A program made the translations under genes and the position numbers. Shown here piece by piece: positions 14,924 through 39,555 of a stretch of DNA of 64,000 nt. Each line of letters starts with the position of its first letter. The first letter of the stretch is position 1. Below the pieces are notes generated by a model. It had not been told where the DNA came from. It saw only the letters and a list, made by a program, of their open reading frames with translations, and searched no databases. Source of the DNA: Saccharopolyspora sp. SCSIO 74807 (GTDB lineage: Bacteria; Actinomycetota; Actinomycetes; Mycobacteriales; Pseudonocardiaceae); contig NZ_CP146100.1 in assembly GCF_037023755.1 (NCBI RefSeq), positions 2,792,501 through 2,856,500 of the forward strand, written 5' to 3'.

Positions 14924-15130
14924 GCTGACTCCCTTCCGCGCGGTGCGTTCGTTCCGGTCGGACCGGTTTGCTGACTGCTCCGGTTTCCGGGCGGTGCCAA
15001 GTCGTTTCCTTGGGCAGCCACCAGACGCTTGCTAGGGTCATTGAAGCACCTATGACAATCGCCGTCGATCCGTCGCCTCCCGATGGGCCTCGCCACCGGG
15101 TTCCGGCTGCTGCTGCGGAAAGGAATTCCC

Positions 15131-15979: not shown

Positions 15980-16012
15980 TCCCTTGTGCGGGGCCGGGCC
16001 CGCACGCATAAT

Positions 16013-16024
16013 GGACACCTGTCC
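16013..16024. promoter_or_regulatory. GGACA-N2-TGTCC dyad, candidate operator
   Basis: A perfect 5+2+5 palindrome 109 nt upstream of the NTF2-like gene. It shares its core with the site at 1503-1514 before the P450 operon, suggesting one TetR-type regulator controls both units. Confidence 0.5.
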
Positions 16025-16042
16025 AATCAACTGTCCGCCCGT

Positions 16043-16093
16043 GAGCGAACGGACCGCTCGTCCCAATGGATCGGGCGAACGGTCCGTTCACTC
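16043..16093. repeat. 51-bp palindromic repeat, copy 3
   Basis: Arms 16043-16063 and 16073-16093 with loop CAATGGATC. It starts 63 nt after the luciferase-like gene and ends 39 nt before the NTF2-like gene. It is a single copy. Confidence 0.9.
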
Positions 16094-16132
16094 GATGCTC
16101 ACGCCGGCGCGAGCACAGGCTGGAGGGGTCCG

Positions 16133-18198: not shown

Positions 18199-18270
18199 CC
18201 GCCGGCGGGTTACTTGGCGGAACCGGCGTGACCGCCGGCGGGTTACTTGGCGGAGCCGGCGTGACCGCCC
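18182..18270. repeat. 33-bp in-frame tandem repeat across the aldehyde dehydrogenase stop codon
   Basis: Units start at 18182, 18215 and 18248 (the third is partial, about 23 bp, with one substitution). Each contains GGCGGAACCGGCGTGACCGC, so the GTGA stop/start junction is triplicated. The 33-bp period equals 11 codons, and repeats after the first extend the frame upstream of the SDR. It is a recent local duplication, not an interspersed or CRISPR-like repeat. Confidence 0.85.
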
Positions 18271-18359
18271 GGGAATTCGATGGCGGAGTCAGAGGGACCG
18301 CCGGGGAATTCGGCGGCGAGGCCGCCGGCGGTTCGCCGACCGGGATGACGGGAGCGGGC

Positions 18360-19109: not shown

Positions 19110-19966
19110 GCGCGGTCGGGTTCGCCGGTCTCGGCAACATCGGCAAGGCGATGGCCACCAGGCTCGTGGACCGCCCCGGTGGCCTGCTGGTCTTCGACAT
19201 CGCCTCCGAGCCGGTGGCGCAATTGCGCGCGGCGGGAGCGAAGGTCGCGCGGGACGTGGCGGAACTGGCGGCGCAGGTGGATCTGCTGTGCGTCATGGTC
19301 CGCGACGACGACCAGGTGCGTTCGGTCCTCGCCGAGGTGCTGCCCGCGGCCCGCGACGGACTCGTCGTCGCGGTGCACTCCACGATCGCCCCCGGTACCC
19401 CTGCGGAGCTGGCCGAACAGGCCGCCGAGCACGGCGTCGCGCTGGTGGACGCGCCGGTCAGCGGCGGTCCGATGGGAGCTGCGGACGGCAGCTTGGCGAT
19501 CATGGTCGGCGGCCCCGAAACCGCCTTCGCCACCTGCGCCGAACCGTTCGGCCGGATGGGCGGGCAGGTCGTGCACGCGGGCCCGATCGGCGCGGGAACC
19601 AGGATGAAACTCGCCAGGAACCTGCTGCACTTCGCATCGTTCACCGCGGCCGCGGAAGCGCAGCGGCTCGCCGAAGCGGCCGGGCTGGACCTGGTCGAAC
19701 TCGGCCGGGTCGTGCGGCACACCGACGGGATCACCGGTGGACCAGGCGCGATCATGCACCGCGACACGGCCGCGCCGCTGGCCGACGGCGACCCGTGGGC
19801 GGGGATCTTCGAGCACGTCCGCGCGCTGGGGGAGAAGGACCTGCGGTTCGCGATCGAGCTGGCGCGGGAGCTGGGCGTCGACGTCCCGCTCGCCCGGCAC
19901 GCGCTCACCGGCCTCGGGCCAGGACTGGGGCTCTCCGCACCACCCGCGCCCCCGCGGGAGCAGTGA
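19106..19966 (+). CDS. NAD(P)-dependent 3-hydroxyisobutyrate-type dehydrogenase
   Basis: A 286-residue beta-hydroxyacid dehydrogenase with N-terminal GFAGLGNIGKAMA dinucleotide motif, the substrate loop DAPVSGGPMGAADGSLAIMVGG, partly quoted as DAPVSGGPMGA, and the catalytic Lys segment GTRMKLARN. It would oxidise a beta-hydroxy acid to the semialdehyde or keto acid. It overlaps the upstream SDR by 4 nt. Rv0770 holds the same position in M. tuberculosis. The stop codon lies inside the first bases of repeat copy 4. Confidence 0.9.
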   Translation: MSAVGFAGLGNIGKAMATRLVDRPGGLLVFDIASEPVAQLRAAGAKVARDVAELAAQVDLLCVMVRDDDQVRSVLAEVLPAARDGLVVAVHSTIAPGTPAELAEQAAEHGVALVDAPVSGGPMGAADGSLAIMVGGPETAFATCAEPFGRMGGQVVHAGPIGAGTRMKLARNLLHFASFTAAAEAQRLAEAAGLDLVELGRVVRHTDGITGGPGAIMHRDTAAPLADGDPWAGIFEHVRALGEKDLRFAIELARELGVDVPLARHALTGLGPGLGLSAPPAPPREQ

Positions 19967-20015
19967 GCGAACGGACCGTTCGTCCAATCTAGCGGGACCA
20001 ACAGTCCGTTCACCT
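19965..20015. repeat. 51-bp palindromic repeat, copy 4
   Basis: Arms 19965-19985 and 19995-20015; loop AATCTAGCG, which is the reverse-complement form of the copy 1 loop. The TGA of the upstream dehydrogenase overlaps its first two bases. Copy 5 follows after exactly 13 nt. Confidence 0.9.
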
Positions 20016-20028
20016 GGGAAGCCGCGAG

Positions 20029-20079
20029 CAGTGAACGGACCGTTCGTCCGAACAGATCGGGCGAACATGCCGTTCGCTC
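20029..20079. repeat. 51-bp palindromic repeat, copy 5
   Basis: Arms 20029-20049 and 20059-20079; loop GAACAGATC. It is in the opposite orientation to copy 4, judged by the loop, and ends 35 nt before the next SDR gene. Confidence 0.9.
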
Positions 20080-20114
20080 CGGAACCGCACCACCGGAACG
20101 GAAGAAGGCGTGAC

Positions 20115-20903
20115 ATGCCGAGATTCGATCCCCATCCGCAGCGGCGCCCGGCCATCGTGGCCGGGGCGTCCTCCGGCATCGGCACGGCCACCGCGCAGGC
20201 GCTGGCGACCGCCGGGCACCCCGTCGCGCTCGGCGCCAGGCGGGTGCAGCTGTGCGAGGAGATCGCCGCGACGATCCGCGCGGGCGGGGGAGAGGCGATC
20301 GCCGAACCGCTCGACGTCGCCGACACCGAGTCGGTGCAGAACTTCGTCGCCGCCGTCGAGGACTCGCTGGGTCCGGTGGAGACGGTCGTCTCCGGCGCGG
20401 GCGACATCGACGCCGCGCTGATCCACGAGCAGGACCCGGAGACCTTCGCCAGCCAGGTCGAAGTGCACCTCGGCGGCCCGCAGCGGTTGGCGGCGGCGAT
20501 CGTGCCGTCGATGGTGCGGCGGCAGCGCGGCGATTTCGTGTTCATCAGCTCCGACGTGGCGCGCACCCACCGCCCGCGGATGGGCGGCTACGTGCCCGCG
20601 AAGGCCGGGCTGGAGGCGATGGTGCAGACGATGCGGATGGAGCTGGAAGGCACCGGCGTGCGCACGTCGCTGGTGCGTCCCGGGCCGACGAAGACCGCGA
20701 TGGGCACCACCTGGAAGGACGAGGTCGCAACCGCGGTGCTGGAGGACTGGGTGCACTGGGGACTCGCGCGGCACCCCTACTTCCTGCGCCCGTCCGACGT
20801 GGCGGCCGCGATCACCGCGATCGTCGGCACCCCGCGGGGTTCGCACCTGACGATGGTGGAGGTCGAGCCCGAAGCGCCGCTGCGAGAACGACCGGAGGGC
20901 TGA
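20115..20903 (+). CDS. SDR-family oxidoreductase
   Basis: A 262-residue short-chain dehydrogenase with AGASSGIGTATAQALA, Ser in FISSDVA and a Y-x3-K pair in YVPAKAG. The asparagine of the usual NAG motif is replaced (VSGAGDID), which is seen in some divergent SDRs. M. tuberculosis has an SDR (Rv0765c) between cyp51 and cyp123, and this gene may match it although it is displaced here. AAGG lies about 6 nt before the ATG at 20115. It is the last gene of the putative catabolic block. Confidence 0.88.
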   Translation: MPRFDPHPQRRPAIVAGASSGIGTATAQALATAGHPVALGARRVQLCEEIAATIRAGGGEAIAEPLDVADTESVQNFVAAVEDSLGPVETVVSGAGDIDAALIHEQDPETFASQVEVHLGGPQRLAAAIVPSMVRRQRGDFVFISSDVARTHRPRMGGYVPAKAGLEAMVQTMRMELEGTGVRTSLVRPGPTKTAMGTTWKDEVATAVLEDWVHWGLARHPYFLRPSDVAAAITAIVGTPRGSHLTMVEVEPEAPLRERPEG

Positions 20904-26793: not shown

Positions 26794-27165
26794 GTGACCG
26801 CGCAACTACCCGGCAACGTCGCTCCCACCGATGACGGCGAGATCGTCACCTGGCGCCGCTGGGCGAACCGGACGCAGAGCAATTCCCGCGCCGCCGGCGG
26901 CAGGCTGTACCTGACGAACCGGCGAGTGCTGTTCTGCCCGCACGCCTTCGACGCCAACACCGGTGGCGAATACCGGAGCATCCCGCTGGCGGCGATCACC
27001 GAGGTCGGCAAGCAGCCGCGCACCCTGAACCTGCGCGCCGCGTACAACGGCGGCCTGCGCACCCGACTGCGGATCGACTGCGCGGACGGCTCCACCGAAC
27101 TGTTCGTCCTCAACAAACTCGACCAGGTCATCACCGAGATCCGCGCCGCGACCGGCCCGGCCTGA
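26794..27165 (+). CDS. Small GRAM/PH-like domain protein
   Basis: A 123-residue soluble protein with no signal peptide. The GGRLYLTNRRVLFCPHAFDA segment is the beta-strand pattern of bacterial GRAM/PH-like domains, which bind lipids or proteins at membranes. GTG 26794 follows GAAAGGGGAA. It is divergent from bioY and stands alone. The role is unknown. Confidence 0.75.
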   Translation: MTAQLPGNVAPTDDGEIVTWRRWANRTQSNSRAAGGRLYLTNRRVLFCPHAFDANTGGEYRSIPLAAITEVGKQPRTLNLRAAYNGGLRTRLRIDCADGSTELFVLNKLDQVITEIRAATGPA

Positions 27166-27405
27166 ACCGCAACCTCCCAGCGCGGTGCGGTGCGCGGTCT
27201 CCGATCGAAGGCGACCACCGAAACCCGGCGTCGAGATCGACGGTGACGGACACTCTGCCAGTCCTGACCAGCGGATGCGGACGTCACAGCAGGGCGCCTA
27301 GTGCCGACCACGGTTACCGTGTATAGTCGTCGGTGCGGACCCGTCCCATGTGCTTGGGGTAGCGGGTCCAGCTTACTTTTCAGGGCCCGCCAGCGTTCAG
27401 GTTGG
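27166..27405. other. Intergenic region, somewhat AT-richer
   Basis: 240 nt between the GRAM-like gene and the convergent DUF3800 gene. There is no gene and no clear terminator. The lower GC near 27300-27340 differs from the flanks and fits imported DNA around the DUF3800 gene. Confidence 0.35.
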
Positions 27406-28095
27406 TCAGCCTTCGGGGCCCCCAAGATCCAGCGGCTCCGGCCCGGTGCGGGCGCAGGGAGACAGCAGCTCGTACCAACCCCACGTATGAGCTTTGCGCT
27501 CAACACGCGCCACCCGCATGTAAGCCGTGTACGCCACCAGATCAGCCATTTGCACCCACTGGCTGTGGTGCGAGTGATGAAACAGCGGATCTTCGATCAC
27601 CGAGCGCGTAGCCAGCTTCAATTCCCGATGCGCAGTCCGGTACGAGTGATCATTGCCGTCCCCGTCCATCATGATCAAGCCCAGCTCGCCGGCCGCGGTC
27701 AACCGCGCATCCAGATACCGCACCAGCCGCGCATAAGCGTCCGCCTTCGCCGCCTTATGTTTGACTCCCGATGGCGTCCGCAGAAACACCGCGCCAGCCT
27801 CCAACCCCTCCAGCCGCGCCACGGTCGACAACGCCTCCCGCATCACACTCGACCGGTTCGCCTTCACCGCGTCCCAGTCCGTACCCGTCGGACGCGAACG
27901 ACCTCCCACGAAATCTGTCGCATGCAACTCAAAGTCCGTGGCCAATCCGATCGAGCGGTACAACTCCTGCCGCCAGTCCAGCCAGCCCCGCAGCACCTGA
28001 CTCCACGTCCGCAGCTCTAGTTCCACCCAGCCGAACACGTTCATCCCCGACTGCTGCGCCCCGGAGTCATCGACGTAGAACACCCGCACGACCAT
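27406..28095 (-). CDS. DUF3800 domain protein
   Basis: A 229-residue protein with the DUF3800 layout: an N-terminal FYVDDSG strand with paired Asp, a central MMDGDGNDHSY strand, and a C-terminal HHSQWVQMADLVAYTAYMRV helix with another Asp. The fold is thought to be RNase H-like with a metal site, and such genes are common on mobile and defence islands. ATG 28095 places the catalytic strand at the start. Base composition is lower in GC than the neighbours, hinting at transfer. The precise activity is unknown. Confidence 0.82.
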   Translation of the reverse strand: MVVRVFYVDDSGAQQSGMNVFGWVELELRTWSQVLRGWLDWRQELYRSIGLATDFELHATDFVGGRSRPTGTDWDAVKANRSSVMREALSTVARLEGLEAGAVFLRTPSGVKHKAAKADAYARLVRYLDARLTAAGELGLIMMDGDGNDHSYRTAHRELKLATRSVIEDPLFHHSHHSQWVQMADLVAYTAYMRVARVERKAHTWGWYELLSPCARTGPEPLDLGGPEG

Positions 28096-28282
28096 GACCA
28101 CACCATACGGAACGTGACCGACCACAAACGCACCGTGTTCGTCTTAGGGTGTTTTCTTGAACCGCGGCACCCCGACTCGGCGGCCTGCGCGCTTGCCGGA
28201 CAGCGAAGGTTTTGCAGGCATGGTCAACGTCATTCCACGTCGGACTGGAGCGCATACGTCGAGAGCGACCGCTCCTGCACCG

Positions 28283-30457
28283 TCAGCCGGAGGCCGCCGC
28301 GTTCAGCCTGCCCAGTGCGCCGCGGACCACCTGCGGGTCGTAGGTGGCCCAGAACGGCGGCAGCGAGGCGCGCAGGAAGCTGCCGTAGCGGGCGGTCGCC
28401 AGCCGCGGGTCGAGGACCGCGATGACGCCGCGGTCGTGCACGGACCGCAGCAGCCGCCCGGCGCCTTGGGCCAGCAGCAGCGCCGCGTGCGTCCCGGCGA
28501 CGGTGATGAACCCGTTGCCGCCGTGCGCGGACACCGCCTTCTGCCGCGCCGAGGCGAGCGGGTCGTCCGGCCGCGGGAACGGGATGCGGTCCATCACCAC
28601 GAGTTGCAGCGAGTCACCGGGCACGTCCACGCCCTGCCACAGCGACAACGTGCCGAACAGCGAGGTTTCCGGTGATTCGGAGAACTTCGCCACCAGCTGC
28701 GCGGTGTTGTCCTCGCCCTGGCACAGCACCGGCGTCGACAGCCGCTCCCGCAGCTGTTCGGACGCCTGCTTGGCCGCGCGCATCGAGGAGAACAGCCCGA
28801 GCGTGCGGCCACCCGCGGCCTGCACCAGCTCGGTGAGCTCGTCCAGGTACTCGTCCGGCAGCCCGGCTTTGCCCGGCGGCGGCAGGTGCCGCGCGATGTA
28901 GAGGATGCCGCTGCGCCGGTGCTCGAACGGTGAGCCGACGTCCAGCCCGGTCCAGGCGGTGCTGGAGCTGTCGGAGGGTGCTTCCTTGCGGCTGGCCATG
29001 TCCTCGGCCGCGGCCGCCTGGCGCTCCGGCGGCAGGCCCCACTGCCGGGCCAGCGTGTCGAAGGACCCGCCGAGCGCCAGCGTCGCCGAGGTCAGCACCG
29101 TCGTGCGCTGCCCGAACAGCCGCTCCCGCAGCAGCCCGCCGACGCCGAGCGGGGCCACCTTCACCGCTCGCGGCCGGTTCGGCTCGGCGCTGATCCAAAC
29201 CACGTCGCGGCGCTGGCCCTCCGGTTCGTCGAAGGCGTCCAGCAACCGAACCGCGGTGTCGTGCAGCTCCTCGGTCAACGCCAGCGCGAGCCTGCGGGCC
29301 GTGCTGCCTTCGACGTCCTCCTTGCGCTCCGGCCCGAGCGCGGTCATGCACGCCGCGCCCGCGTCGCGCAACGCCGTGAGCGCCCCGCCGAGCGCTTCCG
29401 GCATCGCCTCCAGCCGCTCCGCAGGCGCGTCCTCCAGCACGGTTTCGAGTCCTTCGGCCGCCTCGTCGAGCCGGTCGGCGATGCTCTGGTCGATCGCGCG
29501 CCCGCAGCGCCGCGCGGCGAGTTTCGCCTGGCCTCCGGTGAGTTCTCCGGTGGCGGCCGAGGTCACCCGGTCGACCAGGTCGTGCGCCTCGTCGACCATG
29601 ACCACGTCGTGCTCGGGCAGCACCGGCCGGTCGTCGAGCGCGTCGATCGCCAGCAGCGCGTGGTTGGTCACGACCACGTCGGCCCGGCCCGCTTCACCGC
29701 GGGCGCGTTCGGCGAAGCAGTCGGTGCCGACGGGGCAGCGCTGCACCCCGAGGCATTCCTTCGCGGTCACCGAAACCTGCCGCCACGCCTGATCGGTCAC
29801 GCCCGGCACGAGTTCGTCCCGGTCGCCGGATTCGGTCTCGGTCGCCCACTCCCGCAGCCGCTTGACCTGCCGTTCCAGTGCGGAGGCGGCGAACGGGTCG
29901 AACAGCGCGCCTTCGTCGGGTTCTTCCGGGGCGTTGCCGTGGATCCGGTTCAGGCACAGGTAGTTGCGGCGGCCTTTGAGGATCGCGAACGTCGGCGGCC
30001 GCCCCAGCGCCTCGGCCAGCGCGGTCGCCAGCCGCGGCAGGTCGCGGTCCACCAGCTGGCGCTGCAGCGCGATCGTCGCGGTGGAGATCACCACCGTGGT
30101 GGCCGCGGTGACGGCGTGCCGGATCGCGGGAACCAGGTAGGCGAGGGATTTGCCGGTGCCGGTTCCGGCCTGCACGGCCAAGTGCTCACCGGATCCGATG
30201 GAGTGCTCCACGGCGTCGGCCATCCGCGCCTGGCCCTCGCGCTCGGTGCCGCCGACCGAGCGGACCGCGATCTCCAGCAGCTCGGCCAGCTCAGGTACCT
30301 GCTCCGGTGGTTTCGCGGTGCTCGGCTCGTTCCGGTGCTGAGCCTGCTGCGGCCTGCCCTGCTTCGCGAGATCAGCGGCGATCTCCGGCGGAAGATCGTC
30401 GGAGTCGTCGGGCGCGAACACGTCCGGATCGGACCACTGCGGAACAGAACCAGGCAC
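28283..30457 (-). CDS. dinG: DinG-family ATP-dependent DNA helicase
   Basis: A 724-residue superfamily 2, XPD-like helicase with Walker A AGTGTGKS, the DEAH box VDEAHD, and Cys residues in YLCLNRI and ECLGVQRCPVGTDC that can bind a 4Fe-4S cluster. The C-terminal ATPase half ends with GAGRLLRS. It unwinds DNA 5' to 3' and processes R-loops and repair intermediates. GTG 30457 is the start. In M. tuberculosis the dinG homologue Rv1329c adjoins pncB1; here about 8.5 kb lies between them. Confidence 0.92.
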   Translation of the reverse strand: MPGSVPQWSDPDVFAPDDSDDLPPEIAADLAKQGRPQQAQHRNEPSTAKPPEQVPELAELLEIAVRSVGGTEREGQARMADAVEHSIGSGEHLAVQAGTGTGKSLAYLVPAIRHAVTAATTVVISTATIALQRQLVDRDLPRLATALAEALGRPPTFAILKGRRNYLCLNRIHGNAPEEPDEGALFDPFAASALERQVKRLREWATETESGDRDELVPGVTDQAWRQVSVTAKECLGVQRCPVGTDCFAERARGEAGRADVVVTNHALLAIDALDDRPVLPEHDVVMVDEAHDLVDRVTSAATGELTGGQAKLAARRCGRAIDQSIADRLDEAAEGLETVLEDAPAERLEAMPEALGGALTALRDAGAACMTALGPERKEDVEGSTARRLALALTEELHDTAVRLLDAFDEPEGQRRDVVWISAEPNRPRAVKVAPLGVGGLLRERLFGQRTTVLTSATLALGGSFDTLARQWGLPPERQAAAAEDMASRKEAPSDSSSTAWTGLDVGSPFEHRRSGILYIARHLPPPGKAGLPDEYLDELTELVQAAGGRTLGLFSSMRAAKQASEQLRERLSTPVLCQGEDNTAQLVAKFSESPETSLFGTLSLWQGVDVPGDSLQLVVMDRIPFPRPDDPLASARQKAVSAHGGNGFITVAGTHAALLLAQGAGRLLRSVHDRGVIAVLDPRLATARYGSFLRASLPPFWATYDPQVVRGALGRLNAAASG

Positions 30458-30603: not shown

Positions 30604-31206
30604 TCAGGAAGGCGCCGCCGGCCAGGCGCTCATGGCGTGATCGATCACGCCTTCCAGGTCCGCCAGGGACGCGCCGTCCTTCGCCTGAATGGACAGCCCT
30701 TGCAGCACCGTCGCGTAGAAGGTCGCGACCGATGCGGTGTCGGTGTCCGCCCGAACGTCGCCTTCGGCGATGCCGCGTTCCAGGCGTTGCCGCAGCGTCG
30801 CGAGCACTTCGCGGCGCAGCCCGGCGAGGTGCTCGCGAACACCGGCGTTGCGGGCGGTGCCGACGTTCGCAGCCAGCACGATCATGCAGCCCCGCGGAGT
30901 CGCCGGGTCGGTGTAGGACCGCGCGTAGCTGCGCAGCATGGACTCCACCGCCAGCCGCGCGGTCGCAGCCCGGTGCAGGGCGTCGTTCGCGGCGCGGCCC
31001 TCGACGGTGTTGTACCGCTCGGTCGCGGACCGGAACAGTCCCTCCTTGCTGCCGAACGTCGCGTACAGGCTCGGTGCGTTGATCCCCATCGCGGCGGTGA
31101 GGTCGCCGATGGAAGTCCCCTCGTACCCGCTGGCCCAGAAGACCTCCATCGCCTTGTGCAGCGCGACCTCCCGGTCGAAGGCCCGCGGTCGTCCGCGTTC
31201 GGTCAT
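30604..31206 (-). CDS. TetR/AcrR-family transcriptional regulator
   Basis: A 200-residue repressor. The HTH covers ALHKAMEVFWASGYEGTSIGDLTAAMGINAPSLYATFGSKEGLF, partly quoted as GDLTAAMGINAPSLYATFG, followed by a helical ligand domain with a CMIVLA segment typical of the TetR_C type that senses electrophilic or quinone-like molecules. It is divergent from the SDR gene, and a perfect 22-bp palindrome lies between them, so it almost certainly represses both. It is the likely pathway regulator of the cyclitol island. Confidence 0.92.
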   Translation of the reverse strand: MTERGRPRAFDREVALHKAMEVFWASGYEGTSIGDLTAAMGINAPSLYATFGSKEGLFRSATERYNTVEGRAANDALHRAATARLAVESMLRSYARSYTDPATPRGCMIVLAANVGTARNAGVREHLAGLRREVLATLRQRLERGIAEGDVRADTDTASVATFYATVLQGLSIQAKDGASLADLEGVIDHAMSAWPAAPS

Positions 31207-31285
31207 CTCGTGCCCTCCCCGGCCGGTGTCGCGGCTTCCTGCCGCAAATTCTGCTTGACGGCCACCAGTGGTGACGTCAGACTAC

Positions 31286-31307
31286 TTCTGTATCGACCGA
31301 TACAGAA
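31286..31307. promoter_or_regulatory. Perfect TetR operator palindrome
   Basis: Ten-base perfect half-sites TTCTGTATCG and CGATACAGAA flank a 2-nt AC spacer. The dyad lies 80 nt from the TetR start and 18 nt from the SDR start, so binding would block both promoters. Confidence 0.85.
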
Positions 31308-31324
31308 CAATCGATGGGGGAACG

Positions 31325-32065
31325 ATGGCGGAGCTCGCGGGCAAGAAGGCACTCGTGGTCGGCGGGAGCAGGGGCATCGGGGCCGGAGCGGCGAGCGGTC
31401 TCGCGTCGAACGGCGCGGACGTGGCGATCACGTACTCGGGTTCGAAGGACAAAGCGCATTCCGTCGTGCGCGACATCGAGGCTTCGGGGGTGCGCGGGGC
31501 GGCCCTGCCGCTGGACGGGATGGACGCGGACTCCGCCCGCGTCGCGGTCGACGAGGCCGCCGACCGCCTCGGCGGACTCGACATCCTGGTCAACTGCGCC
31601 GGCATCTTCCCCTACGGGTTGATCGAGGACGTCACGCTGGAGCAGTTCGACCAGGCCATCGCGGTGCACGTGCGGACCGCCTTCCTGACGACGCAGGCCG
31701 CGGTGCGGCACATGTCCGGCGGCGGCCGGATCATCCACATCGGAACCTCGTTCGTGGAACGGGTGCCGTTCCCCGGCGTGAGCCTGTACACCTTGAGCAA
31801 GTCCGGGCTCACCGGTTTCGCCAAGGCGCTAGCCCGGGAACTCGGCCCCCGCGGGATCACGGTCAACGTGGTGCACCCGGGGCCTACGGACACGGACATG
31901 AACCCGGCGGATTCCGAAGGGGCCGACGGGCAGCGCGCCATCACCGCGCTGGGGCACTACGGCGTGGTGGAAGACATCGCGAACACCGTCGTGCACCTGT
32001 CCGGTGCCGGTGGGCGCCACATCACCGGTGCCTCGATCCCCGTGGACGGGGGCTGGGCGGCCTGA
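31325..32065 (+). CDS. SDR-family oxidoreductase
   Basis: A 246-residue classical SDR: VVGGSRGIGAGAASGLA cofactor loop, NCAGIFPYG, catalytic Ser in GTSFVERV and Tyr-x3-Lys in YTLSKSG. It reduces or oxidises a secondary alcohol or ketone. It is under direct control of the adjacent TetR operator. As the first gene of the cyclitol island it could oxidise a ring hydroxyl of the valiolone-type intermediate, but the TetR-SDR pair is also common as a stand-alone detoxification unit. Confidence 0.9.
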   Translation: MAELAGKKALVVGGSRGIGAGAASGLASNGADVAITYSGSKDKAHSVVRDIEASGVRGAALPLDGMDADSARVAVDEAADRLGGLDILVNCAGIFPYGLIEDVTLEQFDQAIAVHVRTAFLTTQAAVRHMSGGGRIIHIGTSFVERVPFPGVSLYTLSKSGLTGFAKALARELGPRGITVNVVHPGPTDTDMNPADSEGADGQRAITALGHYGVVEDIANTVVHLSGAGGRHITGASIPVDGGWAA

Positions 32066-32399
32066 TCCGACGGCCGGTGCGCAGCGGGCTCCGCCGACCG
32101 TGCAACGGTGCGGAGAACCGGGGGTTCGTGGGAGAAGTCAGCGCTGCTGCTGGGTCAGCGGCACGGGGGCATCACTAGCACTGGGCATCACTGGGTCATC
32201 ACTACTGGGGCGAGTTCCATCGAGCCGGGGTGCGCCCGAAACCGCACCACCGGCCGAGTACGGGCCCAAGGCTCTGGGGGCCTGATCGCGTTCCGGGCCT
32301 GCGCGGCCTGAGCACCGCGGTTCACGGGCGAGCTCGTCGGCAATTCTCGCGCGCAGCGCCCTGGGGGTCGCTGCACTGGACTGAAGAGGTATTCCTGCA
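32066..32399. other. Intergenic region with CATCACT direct repeats
   Basis: 334 nt between the SDR and the FAD oxidase. Three CATCACT heptamers occur at 32170, 32186 and 32198, within GCAC/CTGGG-rich context. They may be an activator or repressor site for the oxidase, or simply local duplication. No gene is supported. Confidence 0.45.
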
Positions 32400-33938
32400 A
32401 TGGCAACAATTTCAAAAGAAGCGCGGCAATACCCGGACCTGACCAGCGGGTACAACCAGCGGTGGTCGGGGACTCCGGAATCCGTTGTCCTGGTCGAGTC
32501 CGTGGAGCAGGTCGCACCGGTGGTGCAGGAAGCCGTCCGCGACGGCAAGCGGATGACGGTGAACGGTGCCGGGCACTGCTTCGAGGACTTCGTCTACAAC
32601 AGCGACGTCGATGTCGTGATCAACATGAAGCACCTCGACGCCGTGTACTACGACCCGGCCATGAACGCCGTCGCCGTCGAAGCGGGTTCGAACCTGCTCA
32701 ACGTGTACGAGAAGCTCTACGAGCGGTGGGGTGTCACCCTCCCCGGCGGCCTCTGCTACTCGGTCGGTGTCGGGGGACACGTTTCCGGCGGTGGATGGGG
32801 CGCGCTGGCCCGGCGGCACGGTTTGATCGTCGACCACCTCTACGCGGTCGAGGTCGTCGTGGTCGGCGAAGGCGGTGAGGTCCGCCGGGTAGTGGCCACG
32901 AGGGAGGAAGACGACCCCAACCGGGACCTGTGGTGGGCGCACACCGGCGGTGGCGGCGGCAATTTCGGCGTGATCACCCGCTATTGGTTCCGCAGTCCCG
33001 GCGCGACCGGCCGCGAACCCGGCGAGATCCTGCCGCGCCCACCGCGGCACGTGCTGCTCAGCGCAGCCGCGCTGTCCTGGGACGAGATCACCGAAGCAGG
33101 CTTCACCCGGCTCGTGAACAACTACGCCGACTGGCACGTGCGCAACTCCCGGCCGGGCAGCCGGGCCGCAGGTCTGTTCGGGCTGGCCGTGCTCAACCAC
33201 CGGTCGAACGGGCAGATCGGCTTGATCACCCAGGTGGAAGCCGATCTTCCGGGGGCGGACGACCTGCTAGCGGAATACCTCGACGCGATCACGGACGGGG
33301 TCGGTGCACCGCTCCAACCGATGACCGCGTCGATGGGGGAGTACAACGCGATGCCCGGGTGCTACGAAGCGCAGCGCTTGCCGTGGCTGCAGGCGACGCG
33401 CTTCCTGGGCACCAACAACGTCGACCTGAACAATCCGACGTTGCGCGCCGATTACAAATCCGGGTACATGCGCGGCAACTTCCCGGACAAGCACGTCGCG
33501 ACCATGTACCAGAGCCTCACCAGCACCGACATCGACAACTCGACCGCCACCATGCACCTGCAGGGCTTCGGCGCCCAGGTCAACGCGGTGCCCGAGTCCG
33601 CGACCGCGTTCGCGCACCGGAGTTCGTACTTCAAGCTCTACTGGCAAGTGCTGTGGGACGACCCGGCGGATGACGACGAGCACCTGACCTGGTTGCGCCG
33701 GTTCTACGCGGACCTGTACCGGGACACCGGCGGGGTGCCGGTGCCGAACGAGCTCACGGACGGCTGCTACGTGAACTACCCGGACGTGGACTTGAACTCC
33801 GCGGAGCACAACCAGTCGCAAGTGCCCTGGTACCGGCTCTACTACAAGGAGAACTACGAGCGGCTGCAGCAGGTGAAGAAGCGGTTCGATCCGCGCGACG
33901 TGTTCCGGCACGCCCAATCCGTGCGGCTGCCGGACTGA
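32400..33938 (+). CDS. FAD-binding oxidase (BBE-like), probably bicovalently flavinylated
   Basis: A 512-residue VAO/berberine-bridge-family oxidase. His 59 in NGAGHCFEDF and Cys 119 in GGLCYSVGVGGHVSGGG align with the two residues that tether FAD in glucooligosaccharide oxidase, AknOx and TamL. The C-terminal BBE motif includes YYKENYERLQQVKKRFDPRDVF, partly quoted as RFDPRDVFRHAQS. Such enzymes oxidise alcohols or ring positions of sugars and natural products with O2. No signal peptide is visible, so it is probably cytoplasmic. It converges on the cyclase operon and is the best candidate oxidase of the island. Confidence 0.88.
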   Translation: MATISKEARQYPDLTSGYNQRWSGTPESVVLVESVEQVAPVVQEAVRDGKRMTVNGAGHCFEDFVYNSDVDVVINMKHLDAVYYDPAMNAVAVEAGSNLLNVYEKLYERWGVTLPGGLCYSVGVGGHVSGGGWGALARRHGLIVDHLYAVEVVVVGEGGEVRRVVATREEDDPNRDLWWAHTGGGGGNFGVITRYWFRSPGATGREPGEILPRPPRHVLLSAAALSWDEITEAGFTRLVNNYADWHVRNSRPGSRAAGLFGLAVLNHRSNGQIGLITQVEADLPGADDLLAEYLDAITDGVGAPLQPMTASMGEYNAMPGCYEAQRLPWLQATRFLGTNNVDLNNPTLRADYKSGYMRGNFPDKHVATMYQSLTSTDIDNSTATMHLQGFGAQVNAVPESATAFAHRSSYFKLYWQVLWDDPADDDEHLTWLRRFYADLYRDTGGVPVPNELTDGCYVNYPDVDLNSAEHNQSQVPWYRLYYKENYERLQQVKKRFDPRDVFRHAQSVRLPD

Positions 33939-34030
33939 TGGGACCGGCCCGTACCGGTGCGGTGCGATCGCCCTGGTGGCGCATCGCACCGCACCGGTCG
34001 CGGGGCCGGGCATCGCCGCGTGGCCGCGCA

Positions 34031-35227
34031 TCAGCCGTTCTTCGCCAGCTCAGCCAGCGACTCGCCCGCCACCTCGAGTTCCCGCTCGTCGACGTCGTCG
34101 ACGAACCGGGCGGCCCCGATGCCGACGGGAAGCGGCAACCGCTGCCTGCCGCCGCGGTGTCGGGTGGTGTCGCCCAGCGCCGAGATCAGCAGCTCGCTGG
34201 TGCACAGCGGGTGCGAGATCGGCAGTTCCAGCGCGCGCATGAGCCGCAGCACGCGGCTCCGTTCGGTAGCGGTGACCAGACCTCGCGCTTCGGCGAGCAG
34301 CGTGCTCAAGGCCATGTCGATGCTCACCGCTTCGCCGTGCAGCAGTTCCGGCAACGCCCGCATCTCCAGCGTCGGGCTGAACGAATGACCGTAGTCGACG
34401 ACGCGTTCCAGCGAGCTCTCCCACAGGTTCGGCTGCAATTCGTCCAACATGCCGCCGATGGACCGTTCGAGAACTTCGGTCGCGGCTTCCCGGTGCCGGC
34501 CGTCGCGCTGGAACTTGGCAGCGAGGAGCCCGGCACCGTGCCAGTCCAGCAGGTCGAACAGCCGGCGATCCCCGATCAGCGCCATCTTGAGGATCTCGGC
34601 CAGCCCGTTGCTGAGATGCCTGCGGTCGACGGTTCGCAGGAACGCCGGATCCAGCACGACGCGATCGGCCGCGTGATAGGTCCCGATCCGGTTCTTGTGC
34701 TCGTCGAAGTTGACGCCGGTCTTCACTCCGATGCCCGCGTCGACGAGACCGATCAGCGTCGTGGGCACCCGCACCACCGGCGTGCCCCGGCGGTACAGGC
34801 TGCCGGCGAAACCGACGACGTCCAGCAGCACACCGCCACCCGCCGCGACGATCGGCTCGTTCCGGCGGTCGATGCCGAACCGATCGAGCGCTTGCAGCAC
34901 GGTGCGCACGTTGCCCCAGTGCTTCGTCGTCTCGTCGCAATTCAGCACGCAGGTGGCGGATGGGATCGAATGTCGCTCGAAGTAGTCGGCGAACGAACGG
35001 CCGTAGTGCCGGTGCACCTCGGAATCAATCACGAGGAGTCGTCGCGCCGTTGGCGACACGCCGCGCGGAACGGCCCGCAGCAGCGCCGGATTCGCGGGAT
35101 CGAGAATGCCGTCGCAGAGCGCGACGTCGTAGCTGACGGGCCGGGTCGCCGTTACGGTCCAGCGGTTGCGGGATGCTTCGGATCGATCCCGCCACGGCGC
35201 GAACGATTCCGTTGCGGTCGGCGTCAT
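34031..35227 (-). CDS. Sugar-phosphate cyclase, 2-epi-5-epi-valiolone synthase-like
   Basis: A 398-residue member of the dehydroquinate synthase superfamily. NAD motif GGGVLLD at 130-136; metal ligands Glu 211 (NGLAEILK), His 281 (YGHSF) and His 297 (LLHGEAV). The segments KTGVNFDEHKNRIGTY and NGLAEILKMALI follow the valiolone synthase pattern (AcbC, ValA, CetA) rather than the shikimate enzyme or the mycosporine cyclase, which favours sedoheptulose 7-phosphate as substrate. The ATG follows the VOC stop with no gap, in a four-gene operon of cupins, VOC protein and cyclase. The exact subclass (EEVS or a close relative) needs a tree. Confidence 0.85.
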   Translation of the reverse strand: MTPTATESFAPWRDRSEASRNRWTVTATRPVSYDVALCDGILDPANPALLRAVPRGVSPTARRLLVIDSEVHRHYGRSFADYFERHSIPSATCVLNCDETTKHWGNVRTVLQALDRFGIDRRNEPIVAAGGGVLLDVVGFAGSLYRRGTPVVRVPTTLIGLVDAGIGVKTGVNFDEHKNRIGTYHAADRVVLDPAFLRTVDRRHLSNGLAEILKMALIGDRRLFDLLDWHGAGLLAAKFQRDGRHREAATEVLERSIGGMLDELQPNLWESSLERVVDYGHSFSPTLEMRALPELLHGEAVSIDMALSTLLAEARGLVTATERSRVLRLMRALELPISHPLCTSELLISALGDTTRHRGGRQRLPLPVGIGAARFVDDVDERELEVAGESLAELAKNG

Positions 35228-35875
35228 CTAACGCTCCTTCTCTGTCAGGTTCGCGCCGGTGTTCCGGGACGGGTGCGGATCGTCGGCCGCATTCGCGTCG
35301 GCGCTGCTCGGGATCGCGTCGCGGTTTTGCTCGGCCCTGTTGTCCCAGCGTGGGGCCGGTCCGTATTTGCGTGCGGCGGTGCGCTGTTCGTAGGGCATTC
35401 CCGCGGGCATGTCGACCACTTCCAGCTGCATTCCCCACGGCGCGGTGAAGTACATCCACCTGTTCCCGGCGAGCGGGCCTTCTTCGATCGTTTCCGGTTC
35501 GCCCTGCAACCGCACTCCCGGCTGGTTCCGCAGGTATTCGGCGGCGACGTCCACGTCGTCGACGTAAATGGCCAGGTGGTGACCGCCGTGGTCGCTGTTC
35601 TCCGGTATCCGGCGCTGCTGGTCCGGGGCCGTGTACTCGAACAGTTCCAGGTTCGTGGTGGGGCCCAGCCGCAGCATCGCGATCCGGGCCGTCGCTCGTT
35701 CGTGCACGTTGAGCTTGCGAGTCATCCAGTCACCGGCCAGGTCCTGGACCGGACCTTCCCAGTAGATCGTTTCGGCACCCAGCACGTCCACGAAGAAGTC
35801 GACCGCCCGCCGCAGATCGGGCACGGTGAAGGCGACGTGGTCGACGTTTCGCGCTCCGGGGATTCCGCTACCCAT
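35228..35875 (-). CDS. VOC-superfamily protein, CetB-type cyclitol epimerase candidate
   Basis: A 215-residue glyoxalase/dioxygenase-fold protein. Four likely metal ligands are visible: His in NVDHVAFTV, Glu in LELFEYT, His in HHLAIYVDD and Glu in LEVVDMP. In the cetoniacytone A pathway the VOC protein CetB, encoded with a valiolone synthase, epimerises 2-epi-5-epi-valiolone; the immediate linkage here points to the same role. A polar tail after residue 170 is probably disordered. It overlaps the upstream cupin by 8 nt and abuts the cyclase. A dioxygenase or lyase role remains possible. Confidence 0.8.
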   Translation of the reverse strand: MGSGIPGARNVDHVAFTVPDLRRAVDFFVDVLGAETIYWEGPVQDLAGDWMTRKLNVHERATARIAMLRLGPTTNLELFEYTAPDQQRRIPENSDHGGHHLAIYVDDVDVAAEYLRNQPGVRLQGEPETIEEGPLAGNRWMYFTAPWGMQLEVVDMPAGMPYEQRTAARKYGPAPRWDNRAEQNRDAIPSSADANAADDPHPSRNTGANLTEKER

Positions 35876-36278
35876 CCCCGGCCCCCGCGGGCCGTTCCAC
35901 GGGTTTCCGGATCGGCAACCGGCCGGTCACCGACTCCGGGAACACCGCGATCAGCAGCAGTTCCAATTCGACCTCGCCGGTGTTGCGCAACACCGTGCCC
36001 GAACCCGCGGGCGCGAGCACCAGCGCCCCGGGACGCAGGGGTGCGGGCCGGTCCCGCCGGGTATCGGACAGCTCGCCGCTCCCGCCGAGCACCAGCACGG
36101 CCAGCTCGACACCGGACTGCCCGCGCGCGTCCTGCGCGGCGCCGGGCGCCAGCAGCAAGTAGTCCACGGCTTCGCATTCGCTGTAGAGCATTCCGCGCCG
36201 AGCCAGGCAGCGCGATCTGATCACGCCGGTGCGCTCGTCGGCGGTCAGCACCAGTCCGCGCGAGTCGGTGACGATCAT
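35868..36278 (-). CDS. Degenerate cupin-fold protein
   Basis: A 136-residue protein parallel to the first half of the upstream tandem cupin: both share LARRG-x3-W/C-EAVD/E near residue 30 and VLRNTG near the end. The metal-binding HxH and Glu are missing (QDARGQSGVELAVLV), so it probably binds no metal and may be structural or regulatory. ATG 36278 overlaps the tandem cupin stop (ATGA). It sits directly upstream of the VOC gene. No function is known. Confidence 0.75.
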   Translation of the reverse strand: MIVTDSRGLVLTADERTGVIRSRCLARRGMLYSECEAVDYLLLAPGAAQDARGQSGVELAVLVLGGSGELSDTRRDRPAPLRPGALVLAPAGSGTVLRNTGEVELELLLIAVFPESVTGRLPIRKPVERPAGAGDG

Positions 36279-37027
36279 TGCCGGCCTCCCTCGGCGCCGG
36301 GGACGTCGAGGCTCACGACGAACAGTTCCAGCGGGTCCCGCTGGGACGCGGCTTCGATGGAAACCGTTCCGCCGAGCGGCAGCGTCAGGCCCACTCCGGA
36401 GCGGAGCGCGACCGTTTCCGAGGATCCGCGTGCGCGTCCCTGGCCGCCGATGGTGTAGACGGTGTGCTCTTCGGCGTCGGCGGAAAGCTCCAGCGGCTCT
36501 CCGGGGCGCAGGCGCACCAGCCGCGCGAGCCGCAGCGGACCGGTCAGGTGCTCGGTGGTGTCCACTTGGCCTGCCTGGCGCAGATCGATGACCACGGCGT
36601 CGCTCATTGCTGTCCTCTCCGGCTCGTGTCGGGGTGTTTCTCGCGGGGTGTCGAGCACCGCCGCGGTGTGCGGTCCCGAGACTTCGATGACCAGCCAGAC
36701 CAGTTCCTCGTCACCGGTGTTGCGCAAGCCGTGGCGGGTGCCCAGGCCGTTCACGATGAGGTGGCCCGGCCGGACCTGGTGCGTCCGTCCGTTGAGCGTC
36801 ATCTCTCCGTCGCCGGAGACGATGAAGTACAACTCTTCGGTGCGCGAATGAATATGTTCTCCGCTCACCCCGCCCGGCGGTAGTGCGGACCACTCGACCG
36901 CCTCCCAGTAGCCGAACAAACTGCCCCTGCGAGCCAGCACTTTCCAGCGGGCCAGGCCTTCGCCGCTGTGCATTCCGTGGATGTCCGACGGTTCGTTGAG
37001 GTCTGCGACGATCACTGCGTCTACCAA
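36275..37027 (-). CDS. Tandem (two-unit) cupin protein
   Basis: A 250-residue protein from TTG 37027, with GGAGGG 8 nt upstream. The N-terminal unit carries a complete cupin metal set, His 58 and His 60 in GEHIHSRTEELYF, the Glu after them and His 99 in GTRHGLRNTG. The second unit (from Met 141) lacks it. An internal ATG at 36607 has its own AGAGGA, so the second unit may also be made alone. Cupins in biosynthetic operons act as isomerases, cyclases or dioxygenases. It is the first gene of the cyclase operon, divergent from the methyltransferase. Confidence 0.75.
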   Translation of the reverse strand: MVDAVIVADLNEPSDIHGMHSGEGLARWKVLARRGSLFGYWEAVEWSALPPGGVSGEHIHSRTEELYFIVSGDGEMTLNGRTHQVRPGHLIVNGLGTRHGLRNTGDEELVWLVIEVSGPHTAAVLDTPRETPRHEPERTAMSDAVVIDLRQAGQVDTTEHLTGPLRLARLVRLRPGEPLELSADAEEHTVYTIGGQGRARGSSETVALRSGVGLTLPLGGTVSIEAASQRDPLELFVVSLDVPGAEGGRQ

Positions 37028-37635
37028 GGATCGTTCCCTCCGTGTACGAGCGTGCGAAAACGGCGGAAGCGTGAATTGGGTGGCGCTTCGCCACGCGGTC
37101 GGGCCAGAAGTGTCGATCGATCGCACACGGCGCTGCGCTGCGTTCCGCGGTGGACCGCGCGGCCCTGATTCCTTCCCCAGTCCCGCACATCCCGAGATGT
37201 CCGGTGTGCTGCCGAGTTTGGGGCGGGGCATCCGGTGTGTCAAGCGAAATGCGGCTCCGCGACCGCTTCGCGCTCCGATTTCACATTCGCACCGGGGCCG
37301 ATCGGTTGTCGTTTGGTGCTAACGGCTCACGTGCGCGCGGTGGATTTTCCGGCGGCTTCCGCTGTGCAGGTGAATAATTGCTCTGAAGCGGTGAACGGCA
37401 ACCGGACGGATCCGATGCCCGGACGCAAGGAGTTCTTGTCGAAAAATTGCGGCAGTGTCCTGAATCACATTACGATCTTCGATTTGCCGCCGCTAACATC
37501 GGCGGCATCACCCGTGCCATGGGGGTTTCCGGGTGCATTCCGATGATCCGCGCCGAAGCGATTCGCGGGGCCTTGGCGCGCCCGCGGCATCGTCCGATTC
37601 GGTGCGCGGTCCGCGAACATCGAAGGAGTCGCCCT
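37028..37635. promoter_or_regulatory. Divergent promoter region of the cyclase and methyltransferase operons
   Basis: About 600 nt, locally lower in GC (37290-37500). It must contain the promoters for the cupin-cyclase operon (leftward) and the methyltransferase-cupin operon (rightward). A frame at 37436-37546 follows an AAGGAG but the spacing is only 3 nt, so I do not call it a gene. No clear dyad shared with the TetR operator at 31286 was found. Confidence 0.5.
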
Positions 37636-38298
37636 GTGCGAGTACAGGTCGAAGTGACGTCCGCGCTCCAGGACTACATCGCCGAAATGTCCTTGCGGGA
37701 ACCCGCGGCGCTGGCCGCGCTGCGGGAGGAGACGGAGCAGATGCCCGGCGCGATCATGCAGGTCTCGCCGGAGGAAGGCCAGTTCCTCGGGGTCCTGGTG
37801 CGAGCGCTCGGTGCTTCCCGCGTGCTGGAAGTGGGCACGTTCACCGGGTACAGCACGATCTCCATCGCACGCGCGTTGCCCGCCGGCGGCAGCGTGCTCT
37901 CCTGCGACATCAGCTCGGAGGCCAGCTCGATCGCCCTGGCGCACGCCCGCCGGGCCGGCGTCGAGGACAAGGTCGACCTGCGGGTCGGTGACGCCGTCGG
38001 GGTCCTCACCGGACTCGCCGGGCGCGCGGACCGGCGCGGCTCCTTCGACCTGGTCTTCATCGACGCCGACAAGGAGGGCTACGCGGACTACTACGAGATC
38101 GCGTTGCGCCTGGTCCGGCCCGGCGGACTGATCTTGGTGGACAACGTGCTGTGGCACGGCGCCGTGCTCGACGAGGCCGAACAGGACAGCGAGACCACGG
38201 CGATCCGCGCGTTCAACGAGAAGATCCGGGAGGACGAGCGGGTGGACCTGAGCATCCTCCCGTTCGCCGACGGGCTGGCGTTCGCGGTGAAGCGCTGA
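37636..38298 (+). CDS. Class I O-methyltransferase (caffeoyl-CoA/catechol type)
   Basis: A 220-residue SAM-dependent, metal-dependent O-methyltransferase. Motif I is EVGTFTGYSTISIA, the metal/SAM acidic segment is FDLVFIDADKEGYADYY, and VDNVLWHG completes the site. The same type of methyltransferase follows the cyclase in mycosporine-like amino acid clusters, where it O-methylates the cyclitol product. GTG 37636 has AAGGAG 7 nt upstream. It is divergent from the cyclase operon and followed by a cupin, so it probably methylates the cyclitol or its enol. Confidence 0.9.
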   Translation: MRVQVEVTSALQDYIAEMSLREPAALAALREETEQMPGAIMQVSPEEGQFLGVLVRALGASRVLEVGTFTGYSTISIARALPAGGSVLSCDISSEASSIALAHARRAGVEDKVDLRVGDAVGVLTGLAGRADRRGSFDLVFIDADKEGYADYYEIALRLVRPGGLILVDNVLWHGAVLDEAEQDSETTAIRAFNEKIREDERVDLSILPFADGLAFAVKR

Positions 38299-38339
38299 CC
38301 AGCCGGGATCGAGGAGGGGCGGGATCGAGGAGGGGACGG

Positions 38340-38960
38340 ATGGTCGTCCGGTCGAAAGAGGTCTACGACAACCCGGTCTGCGGTGAGCGCGTCGTCATCC
38401 GGCGGGGCAACGACGAAGGCGACGGGTCCGTGCTCATCTGGGACCTGTACCTGGAGCCCGGCGGCACCGTGGTCGGCGAGCACTACCATCCGACGGCCGA
38501 CGAGAGGTTCGTGCTGGTCAGCGGCAAGCTGGGCATTCGAGCAGGCGGCCGGTCGCGGATTCTCGAAGAAGTGGGCGAGAGCGTGCTCGCCGAAGCGGGC
38601 ACCCGGCACTACTTCTGGAACGGCGACTCCGGCCCGACGCGGATCGTGATCCGGATGCAGGGCCGGGTGGATCGCTTCGAGCAGGCCGTGTTCCGGCAGT
38701 TGTACGGGCTGGCCCAAGACGGCAGGACCGATTCGAACGGCAAGCCCGGCCTGCTGCAGCATGCGGTGACCTCCGCCGAATACGCCGACATCGTCCGGTT
38801 CGCCGCACCGCCGTGGCCGGTGCAGCGCTTGCTGTTCGGGGTGCTCGCCCCGGTCGGACGTGCCCTCGGTTTTCGGGCGTTGTGCGCGGAGTACCGGGAC
38901 CGGCGAGCGCCGCTCGTCGCGGAACTCGACCCGCTGCCCCCGGGATTTCCCGAGTTGTAG
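38340..38960 (+). CDS. Cupin-domain protein with C-terminal hydrophobic segment
   Basis: A 206-residue protein. The cupin core has [17 protein letters not shown] with HxH and Glu, and the later His in AGTRHYFW, so a metal site is intact. The C-terminal third has a hydrophobic helix ([18 protein letters not shown]) that may bind a membrane or partner. GAGGAGGGG lies before the ATG, 41 nt after the methyltransferase stop, so they form one operon. It may be an isomerase or oxygenase on the cyclitol ring. The tail is unlike the other cupins of the island. Confidence 0.82.
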
Positions 38961-38985: not shown

Positions 38986-39555
38986 TCACGCCACCACCGG
39001 CGTCCCCGTCAGCGCCACTCCCGCCGCGCGCAGGTCGCGAACAGCTGTGTCCACTGTGGCCGGTGCGACTCCTGCGGTCAGCGACAGCAGGACCGTCGTG
39101 GTCAGGCCCGCTTTCGCGGCGTCCAGCGCGGTGGCGCGCACGCAGTGGTCGGTGGCGATGCCGACCACATCGACGGCGTCCACTCCGCGTTCACCGAGCC
39201 AATCGCGCAGCGGCGTGCCAAGCCGATCTTTCCCCTCGAAACCGGAGTATCCGGCGCTGTACTGCCCCTTGGAGAACACCGCGCGCACCGGCCCCACCTC
39301 CAGCTCCGGGTGGAACGCCGCGCCGGCGGTGCCCGCGACGCAGTGCACCGGCCAGGACCGCACGTAGTCCGGCCGCGAGCTGAAGTGATCCCCGGGATCG
39401 ATGTGGTAATCGCGGGTGGCGACCACGTGCGCGTACTCGTTCTCCGCGGCATGGCGGGAAATCGCCGCGGCGACACCGGCCCCGCCGGACACCCCGAGCG
39501 CCCCGCCCTCGCAGAAGTCGAGCTGCACATCGACGATCAGCAGCGCAGTGCTCAT
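38986..39555 (-). CDS. pncA: Nicotinamidase
   Basis: A 189-residue isochorismatase-fold amidase. Catalytic triad Asp 9 (DVQLDF), Lys 96 (FSKGQY) and Cys 138 (ATDHCVRAT), with metal ligands Asp 49, His 51 and His 57. It hydrolyses nicotinamide to nicotinate for NAD salvage and is the activator of pyrazinamide in mycobacteria. It follows pncB by 30 nt on the same strand, so the two consecutive salvage steps are encoded together. In M. tuberculosis pncA is elsewhere. Confidence 0.95.

Follow-up and report, generated by a model that had tools for sequence, protein, structure and literature searches.

The window, a 64,000-nucleotide stretch of the Saccharopolyspora sp. SCSIO 74807 genome (contig NZ_CP146100.1, positions 2,792,501 to 2,856,500; complete genome, single contig, 6.69 Mb), contains an island of nine genes at positions 30604-38960 (~8.4 kb), which were defined by Pfam, NCBIfam and coding-model gene calls and form one insertion. 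Together with the reaction steps proposed below, we read the island as a horizontally acquired, TetR-controlled pathway to a nitrogen-free and phosphate-free C7-cyclitol, a reading towards which we lean slightly. The new point is that a tandem cupin with a metal site, or its split form, recurs together with a metal-less single cupin beside 2-epi-5-epi-valiolone synthase (EEVS). In the unphosphorylated C7-cyclitol branch the cyclase and the epimerase are known, but the step after them has no assigned enzyme known to us; the cupin module makes that step testable with a few small proteins. A first-pass annotation of this DNA had listed the nine genes and regarded them as a C7-cyclitol island; their places, strands and families hold with small corrections of start sites only, and the island reading is well supported.

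The cyclase (34031-35227, minus strand) belongs to the dehydroquinate synthase (DHQS) superfamily and, by its sequence, is EEVS-type and neither DHQS nor DDGS; the references in this comparison were ValA, DDGS, DHQS and DOIS, and the product may also be 2-epi-valiolone. A phmmer search scored it at 446.7 bits to ValA (4P53), 238.8 to DDGS (5TPR), 130.9 to the best DHQS and 65.6 to 2-deoxy-scyllo-inosose synthase (DOIS). At three alignment positions, taken to be the published fingerprint sites, the cyclase carries L/D/H as ValA does, compared to E/A/T in the DDGS-type rows and V or I/N/variable in the DHQS-type rows. The eLife 2015 gadusol paper (PMC4426668) states that fingerprint sites of this kind exist. 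In a maximum-likelihood tree of 73 rows, from which six rows had been dropped beforehand, the DHQS-type rows (100/100) and the DDGS-type rows form separate starred groups apart from the cyclase, which joins the loci L038, L072 and L073 at 90/83, under the star level of the tool. The grouping with dehydroquinate synthases that the first-pass annotation had set as the test of its valiolone-synthase-like cyclase was seen neither in the tree nor in the residues. It is most improbable that the gene encodes a second shikimate-type dehydroquinate synthase or belongs to an unrelated detoxification set: aroB is indeed its best NCBIfam model, but at 208 bits it stays under the cut-off of 305, and against it stand the ValA-type residues, the 447 bits to ValA, the separate DHQS-type group and a probable AroB elsewhere in the genome, where the cyclase query has only one match at E 1e-70. 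A shikimate DHQS identity was rejected on the aroB score, the phmmer scores, the residues and the tree, and a DDGS identity on finding L/D/H instead of E/A/T.

Abutting the cyclase lies the gene of a single-domain VOC protein (35228-35875, minus strand; Pfam Glyoxalase), probably a CetB-like 2-epi-5-epi-valiolone epimerase. The protein is 63-69% identical to 14 other VOC proteins aligned at EEVS loci of classes A and C (described below) and 37-51% identical to those of L038, L072 and L073. Its residues H13, E80, H100 and E152 are invariant in 15/15 aligned rows, which are 15 of the 23 listed, with two-domain and weaker VOC proteins left out. These residues would match the two-His two-Glu site described for CetB. 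The labels "CetB-like" and "AcbL-like" are assigned from gene context and protein family. A VOC protein of the CetB kind had been proposed at first pass, and a single VOC protein that adjoins the EEVS-type gene and keeps a conserved two-His two-Glu set is what we found.

Upstream of the VOC gene, two cupin genes complete a head-to-tail run on the minus strand in the order cup2T, cup1 (4-base overlap), VOC (8-base overlap) and cyclase. The tandem cupin cup2T extends from 36275 to about 37015/37024; the mechanical open reading frame (ORF) starts too early, at 37243, compared to 37015 in the coding model, and a TTG near 37024 preceded by GGAGGG is a possible alternative start. Its N-terminal domain holds a full metal site, the ligands of which (H54, H56, E60 and H95) are kept in 38/38 aligned N-domains, including DOIS-linked and catabolic ones, whereas the degenerate C-terminal domain has no invariant His in the alignment. 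The AlphaFold model of cup2T has a pLDDT of 89.3. The smaller cup1 (35868-36278, minus strand) is the proposed partner of the tandem cupin and matched no Pfam or NCBIfam model at E 0.001. It is probably cupin-like, as suggested by a relative that matches Cupin_2 (E 9.9e-6, 25.6 bits, under the 27.2 cut-off), by 38% identity to the tandem cupin over about 95 residues, and by an all-beta AlphaFold model (pLDDT 84.1). Aligned with 22 homologues from EEVS loci, it shows 35-53% identity, and the conserved metal-binding His is missing: no His is invariant across the 23 aligned rows (of 29). One cupin N-domain alignment likewise holds 27 of 32 rows.

The cupins were compared across 57 chosen cyclase loci, taken as 20-kb regions with genes called by a simple codon model; these rows include one DDGS-type locus (L043), are not a random sample, and had three duplicates (L032, L036 and L151) dropped. 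Within 9 kb of the cyclase, a cupin and a VOC protein are both present at 24 loci, both missing at 33, and never found one without the other; both score 0 at L043. A ROK kinase is present at 0/24 of the cupin and VOC loci and at 15/33 of the others, and an AcbL-like alcohol dehydrogenase (ADH) is present at the same 15. Both the ROK and the ADH5 model score 0 bits at the window. A kinase/phosphatase-type EEVS cluster is also found in other genomes of the genus, at L101 (G433:C34) and L041 (G004).

Genome searches gave a corresponding picture, with the limit that few candidates are scored per genome (4 for the cyclase, 7 for the cupin) and matches can be missed. The cyclase has matches in 72 of 390 genomes of the family at E 1e-70 and in 12 of 394 sampled genomes of the class at 1e-80, own genome included in both, and in 19 plasmid records at E 1e-60. 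In the family, neighbourhoods were covered for 43 of 45 places at E 1e-100 or better and for 4 of the 31 listed places with weaker matches. A search with the cupin profile gave a match at E 1e-20 in 24 of the 390 family genomes; 22 of these exceed 200 bits and all 22 lie within 5 kb of an EEVS-type cyclase, whereas the other two (117 and 129 bits) are not of the EEVS-linked kinds. In the class sample, 11/394 genomes have a cupin match at 1e-12, four beside EEVS (own included), two of exceptional kinds and five weak (<55 bits), and the plasmid collection has no cupin match at E 1e-15. A chance addition of the cupins was rejected on the co-occurrence with VOC at 24/57 loci and the 22 genomes with a cupin by an EEVS-type gene. 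The cupin set had been regarded at first pass as no standard part of any known pathway of this sort. It does recur at EEVS-type loci, including cetoniacytone/epoxyquinomicin-like and BE-40644-like ones; we found no paper joining "cupin" with "valiolone" or "EEVS" in a search that left out most subscription papers, where cupins may have been mentioned.

The sequence itself shows the protein families, the residues of the EEVS type and of the metal site, the joining of the genes in one insertion and the co-occurrence of cupin and VOC; the pathway proposed here is conjectural in every reaction, in step order and in product. The cyclase would turn sedoheptulose 7-phosphate into 2-epi-5-epi-valiolone, which the VOC protein would epimerise to 5-epi-valiolone. 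The metal-site cupin cup2T, with cup1 as its partner, might then dehydrate this beta-hydroxyketone to a valienone-type enone, which would be the counterpart of what AcbL does to the 7-phosphate in acarbose biosynthesis. According to PMC7081202 and PMC9200736, AcbL dehydrates 5-epi-valiolone 7-phosphate to valienone 7-phosphate. Because the AcbL-like family is absent from the cupin loci, this slot is empty there, and the cupins could fill it; metal-assisted elimination from a beta-hydroxyketone would be ordinary chemistry. Next, the bicovalent-type FAD oxidase and the short-chain dehydrogenase/reductase (SDR) would set the oxidation level of the ring hydroxyls, and the catechol-type O-methyltransferase would cap an enediol or an aromatised diol. 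The expected product is an O-methylated, oxidised hydroxymethyl-cyclohexenone or hydroquinone (gabosine/epoxydon-like).

More broadly, but only tentatively and with the chances against it, cup2T-type cupins, whether split or fused, may constitute an unrecognised family of metal-dependent keto-cyclitol dehydratases that provides a missing early step of the unphosphorylated route to compounds of the cetoniacytone, epoxyquinomicin and BE-40644 types. Such a family would act downstream of both EEVS and DOIS-like cyclases as well as in the breakdown of cyclitols, and in the EEVS branch it would have gained cup1 as a metal-less subunit. To these compounds the window would add a new member, O-methylated and free of nitrogen. 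If true, the module could be used to mine genomes for nitrogen-free carbasugars and for candidate clusters of the epoxyquinomicin and BE-40644 types. Its tie to the VOC route suggests a new enzyme role, making the island more than an orphan cluster.

The same nitrogen-free C7-cyclitol pathway could also run with cupins that isomerise or epimerise a keto-cyclitol or oxidise it with O2, the water being lost spontaneously or through the SDR; we consider this version unlikely, though it has evidence of its own. Among the PDB matches of the cupin profile are gentisate and quercetin dioxygenases, putative sugar-phosphate isomerases, KdgF and BacB, and the catabolic relatives at L170 and L206 adjoin extradiol-dioxygenase-like genes. 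On the other hand, epimerisation may already be covered by the VOC protein that accompanies the cupin at 24/24 loci, and a BBE or GMC oxidase (at least 500 bits, within 9 kb) is already near at 18/24.

Several points weigh against the proposed pathway with its cupin dehydration. In the PDB the cupin profile matches a putative oxalate decarboxylase best; next come uncharacterised cupins, putative sugar-phosphate isomerases and dioxygenases. Since dioxygenase, isomerase, epimerase and lyase activities are all found among cupins, dehydration is one option only. The class C loci, L085 and L148 carry another ADH, which is a possible enzyme for the AcbL step there. Neither the cupin and VOC set nor the kinase is present at 18/57 loci, and the two routes therefore fail to cover every EEVS-type locus. 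The split of 24 and 33 depends on thresholds fixed after seeing the scores and on models derived from these very loci; the L147 row is a manual entry based on tblastn, two Rhodococcus rows (VOC 109 and 123 bits) were scored as VOC-less and L042 (61 bits) as cupin-less, and the Fisher value of 1.3e-16 is not a probability, the rows being related and chosen. Among the island's genes we recognised neither a transporter nor a resistance gene. Moreover, since the cyclase joins L038, L072 and L073 while the cupin and the VOC protein are nearer to class A or C, the island may be a mosaic, the chemistry of which would be unreadable from any single relative; cup2T itself groups with the class A cupins and not with those of L038, L072 and L073 in a quick tree that carries no support values.

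Cupins of this type are also found away from EEVS. At L171:8484-11160 and L205:8611-11260, which belong to two families, a DOIS-like cyclase, a tandem cupin and an SDR stand in a row, with an ATP-grasp protein near the former set and a DegT aminotransferase near the latter. Against 2-deoxy-scyllo-inosose synthase, the cyclase of L205 reaches 248.5 bits, versus 136 for the best DHQS, and it shares 69% identity with that of L171. At L206:5059-13354 and L170:1937-11200, a cupN-cupC pair occurs with a sugar-type ABC transporter, an SDR, an FAA hydrolase and a VOC protein. The best NCBIfam matches of these VOC proteins are extradiol dioxygenases, and that of the L206 Zn-ADH is scyllo-inosose 3-dehydrogenase, all sub-threshold; these two loci possibly encode cyclitol catabolism through a ring-cleavage step. 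Together, the DOIS-like and catabolic contexts suggest a keto-cyclitol, that is, a cyclic polyol ketone, as the common cupin substrate.

The cupin-bearing loci fall into class A (12 rows), class B (7) and class C (5). In its fuller form (7 rows), class A comprises a salicylate synthase, a KAS III-like protein, an aryl-AMP ligase, an acyl carrier protein (called in 5), cupN, cupC, cup1, cup2T, cup1, a GMC oxidase, a DegT aminotransferase, the cyclase, the VOC protein and a further cupin. The one salicylate synthase tested exceeds its NCBIfam cut-off (459 vs 325 bits). This salicylate-synthase operon was seen at L087:14-11582 and also at L039, L074, L075, L077, L090 and L147, and is a candidate epoxyquinomicin-type cluster. 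Four other class A loci (L079, L080, L083 and L084) carry a NAT-family gene, as assigned by a Pfam run on one of them. Class B consists of the window, L038, L072, L073, L085, L148 and L149 and has no strong aminotransferase match; L148 presents a compact operon, CYC-cup2T-cup1-VOC-GMC-ADH. Class C combines the cyclase, cupN, cupC, cup1, an ADH, a cupin, an SDR and the VOC protein with a UbiA prenyltransferase, a Pyr4-like cyclase and an FAD enzyme; at L100 the gene calls fused its small cupins into a single gene or failed to pick them up. Such a set of EEVS, cupins, SDR, VOC, UbiA prenyltransferase, Pyr4-like terpene cyclase and FAD enzyme was observed at L102:9367-19901 (also L092, L095, L099 and L100), a candidate BE-40644-like merosesquiterpenoid cluster. 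In the cyclase tree, class A forms one group (100/100) and class C another (92/93), whereas class B is not one group.

The DegT aminotransferase occurs at class A loci whose VOC protein and cupins closely resemble those of the window, which speaks for an aminocyclitol made with an aminotransferase encoded elsewhere in the genome. We hold this to be improbable: there is no aminotransferase in the island, and the DegT model scores 0 bits at the window, a figure that leaves the rest of the genome unsearched. The model also gives 0 bits at L038, L072, L073, L148 and L149, and 23 at L085. A kinase, aminotransferase, glycosyltransferase, ATP-grasp protein or ligase was not found by Pfam and NCBIfam among the nine genes, as had been stated at first pass.

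The BBE/PCMH FAD oxidase (32400-33938, plus strand) had been described at first pass as bicovalent-type, and it does have both H59 and C119, the presumed FAD-linking residues; both are invariant in 8/8 aligned rows (of 11 available). The nearest solved relatives of its profile are TamL, CrmK, AknOx, a putative hexose oxidase and GilR; enzymes of the TamL, CrmK, AknOx and GilR type act as oxidases on the alcohol groups of sugars and similar rings. The SDR oxidoreductase (31325-32065, plus strand; Pfam adh_short_C2) also occurs near the cyclase in L038, L072, L073, L085, L149 and the class C loci, and not in L148. The class I O-methyltransferase (37636-38298, plus strand; Pfam Methyltransf_3, CCoAOMT/catechol-type) starts at 37636 in the coding model, the mechanical ORF start at 37447 being too early. 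Its nearest solved chain is 5LHM (230 bits), and its nearest relative, with 54% identity, is encoded at L124. In a FastTree tree without support values it falls outside the O-methyltransferase group found next to DDGS-type genes. It is plausible that an enediol or diol is O-methylated; gadusol is not specially favoured.

The first-pass annotation had suggested a gadusol-like product. A gadusol- or mycosporine-like UV-absorbing compound would fit the joint presence of cyclase, oxidation and O-methylation genes, and O-methyltransferase genes do adjoin DDGS-type cyclases in relatives. Yet we rate it as still less probable than the aminocyclitol, for the cyclase has EEVS and not DDGS residues (although the animal gadusol route also uses EEVS), the O-methyltransferase lies outside the DDGS-partner group, VOC and cupins are missing from the DDGS-type L043, and the nine genes include neither ATP-grasp nor ligase. 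In addition, the families of the nine genes revealed no MT-Ox-like member, MT-Ox itself not having been compared.

The flanking helicase (28283-30421) and nicotinamidase (38986-39555) are adjacent in 4/4 congeners without the island (G001-G004; L143-L146), at a spacing of about 100-260 bp, and gene order past the nicotinamidase is the same as in the congeners up to 45016. Because helicase and nicotinamidase adjoin in the congeners, the borders drawn at first pass are close to those of the insertion. G+C content is 68.2% for the island and, for its flanks, 71.9% and 70.4%. Island proteins that are 98-100% identical occur in Saccharopolyspora sp. HNM0986 (L032), which is another genome of this species, and the full gene set of the window was seen in none of the loci examined outside the species. 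The single cupin cup3 (38340-38960, plus strand; Pfam Cupin_2), which has a C-terminal extension and H-x-H...E...H in sequence, was found in 2/13 genomes, both of this species, and in 0/4 congeners (E 1e-10). Likewise, the O-methyltransferase is present in both genomes of the species and in 0/4 congeners among 10 genomes at E 1e-15; in four genomes from outside the genus the query also picked up different methyltransferases, at best with 55%. That these two genes are unrelated neighbours was rejected, both being inside the insertion and not found in the four congeners.

Divergent from the SDR gene stands a TetR-family repressor (30604-31206, minus strand; Pfam TetR_N and TetR_C_13), 41-42% identical to the TetR near the cyclase in L038, L072 and L073 and 40-41% to the Rhodococcus TetR of L033 and L034. 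Between the two genes, a 20-bp perfect inverted repeat (9-2-9) at 31287-31306 is, from its sequence and position, the probable TetR operator. Its 18-bp core has no other match in the window at up to 3 mismatches (chance mean 0.08). Genome-wide, its 16-bp core has one exact site, and 3 sites at up to 2 mismatches versus 2 for the reversed control. Elsewhere in the window, two extra genes past the helicase (26794-28101), one small and one DUF3800, precede the next gene that the congeners share; they were not called there in the four congeners and may represent a second strain-specific insertion. The region 11277-20903 holds FAD-dependent enzymes, an aldehyde dehydrogenase, an SDR and other dehydrogenase-like genes, as judged by eye from translated starts only, and may be a catabolic region.

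Compared to known systems, the island shares the cyclase superfamily (EEVS in gadusol) and O-methylation with the gadusol (EEVS + MT-Ox) and mycosporine (DDGS + O-methyltransferase) pathways, and differs in its cyclase residues, its O-methyltransferase group and its added VOC and cupins. Its oxidase shares the sequence family and both presumed FAD-linking residues with TamL, CrmK and AknOx, and differs from them in a substrate that would presumably be a cyclitol. With the acarbose, validamycin and pyralomicin C7N pathways it has the EEVS first step in common; acarbose-type pathways phosphorylate the cyclitol and AcbL dehydrates the phosphate, according to PMC9200736 and PMC7081202, whereas the window is without kinase or AcbL-like genes. 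The cetoniacytone A cluster (Actinomyces sp. Lu 9419, MIBiG BGC0000283) shares the EEVS and the single-domain VOC protein with the window, and the class A loci share the tandem and single cupins as well. Beyond CetD, the cet cluster has an aminotransferase and a GMC oxidase, and class A resembles it by its parts list. CetD is a NAT that acts on an aminocyclitol, according to PMC11213898. Against both, the window lacks an aminotransferase, a NAT (none among the nine genes) and a GMC oxidase (0 bits), and has instead the BBE oxidase, the O-methyltransferase and cup3. Class A loci with a salicylate synthase match by their parts list what would be expected for the epoxyquinomicins. Epoxyquinomicins come from Amycolatopsis, and BE-40644 is made by EEVS and a UbiA prenyltransferase, according to PMC8037709 and PMC8532670 for the former and PMC5133447 for the latter. 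The class C loci, which are likened to BE-40644 by their parts list, differ from the window in their UbiA prenyltransferase, Pyr4-like cyclase and FAD enzyme, and have in common with it the EEVS, cupN, cupC, cup1, SDR and VOC.

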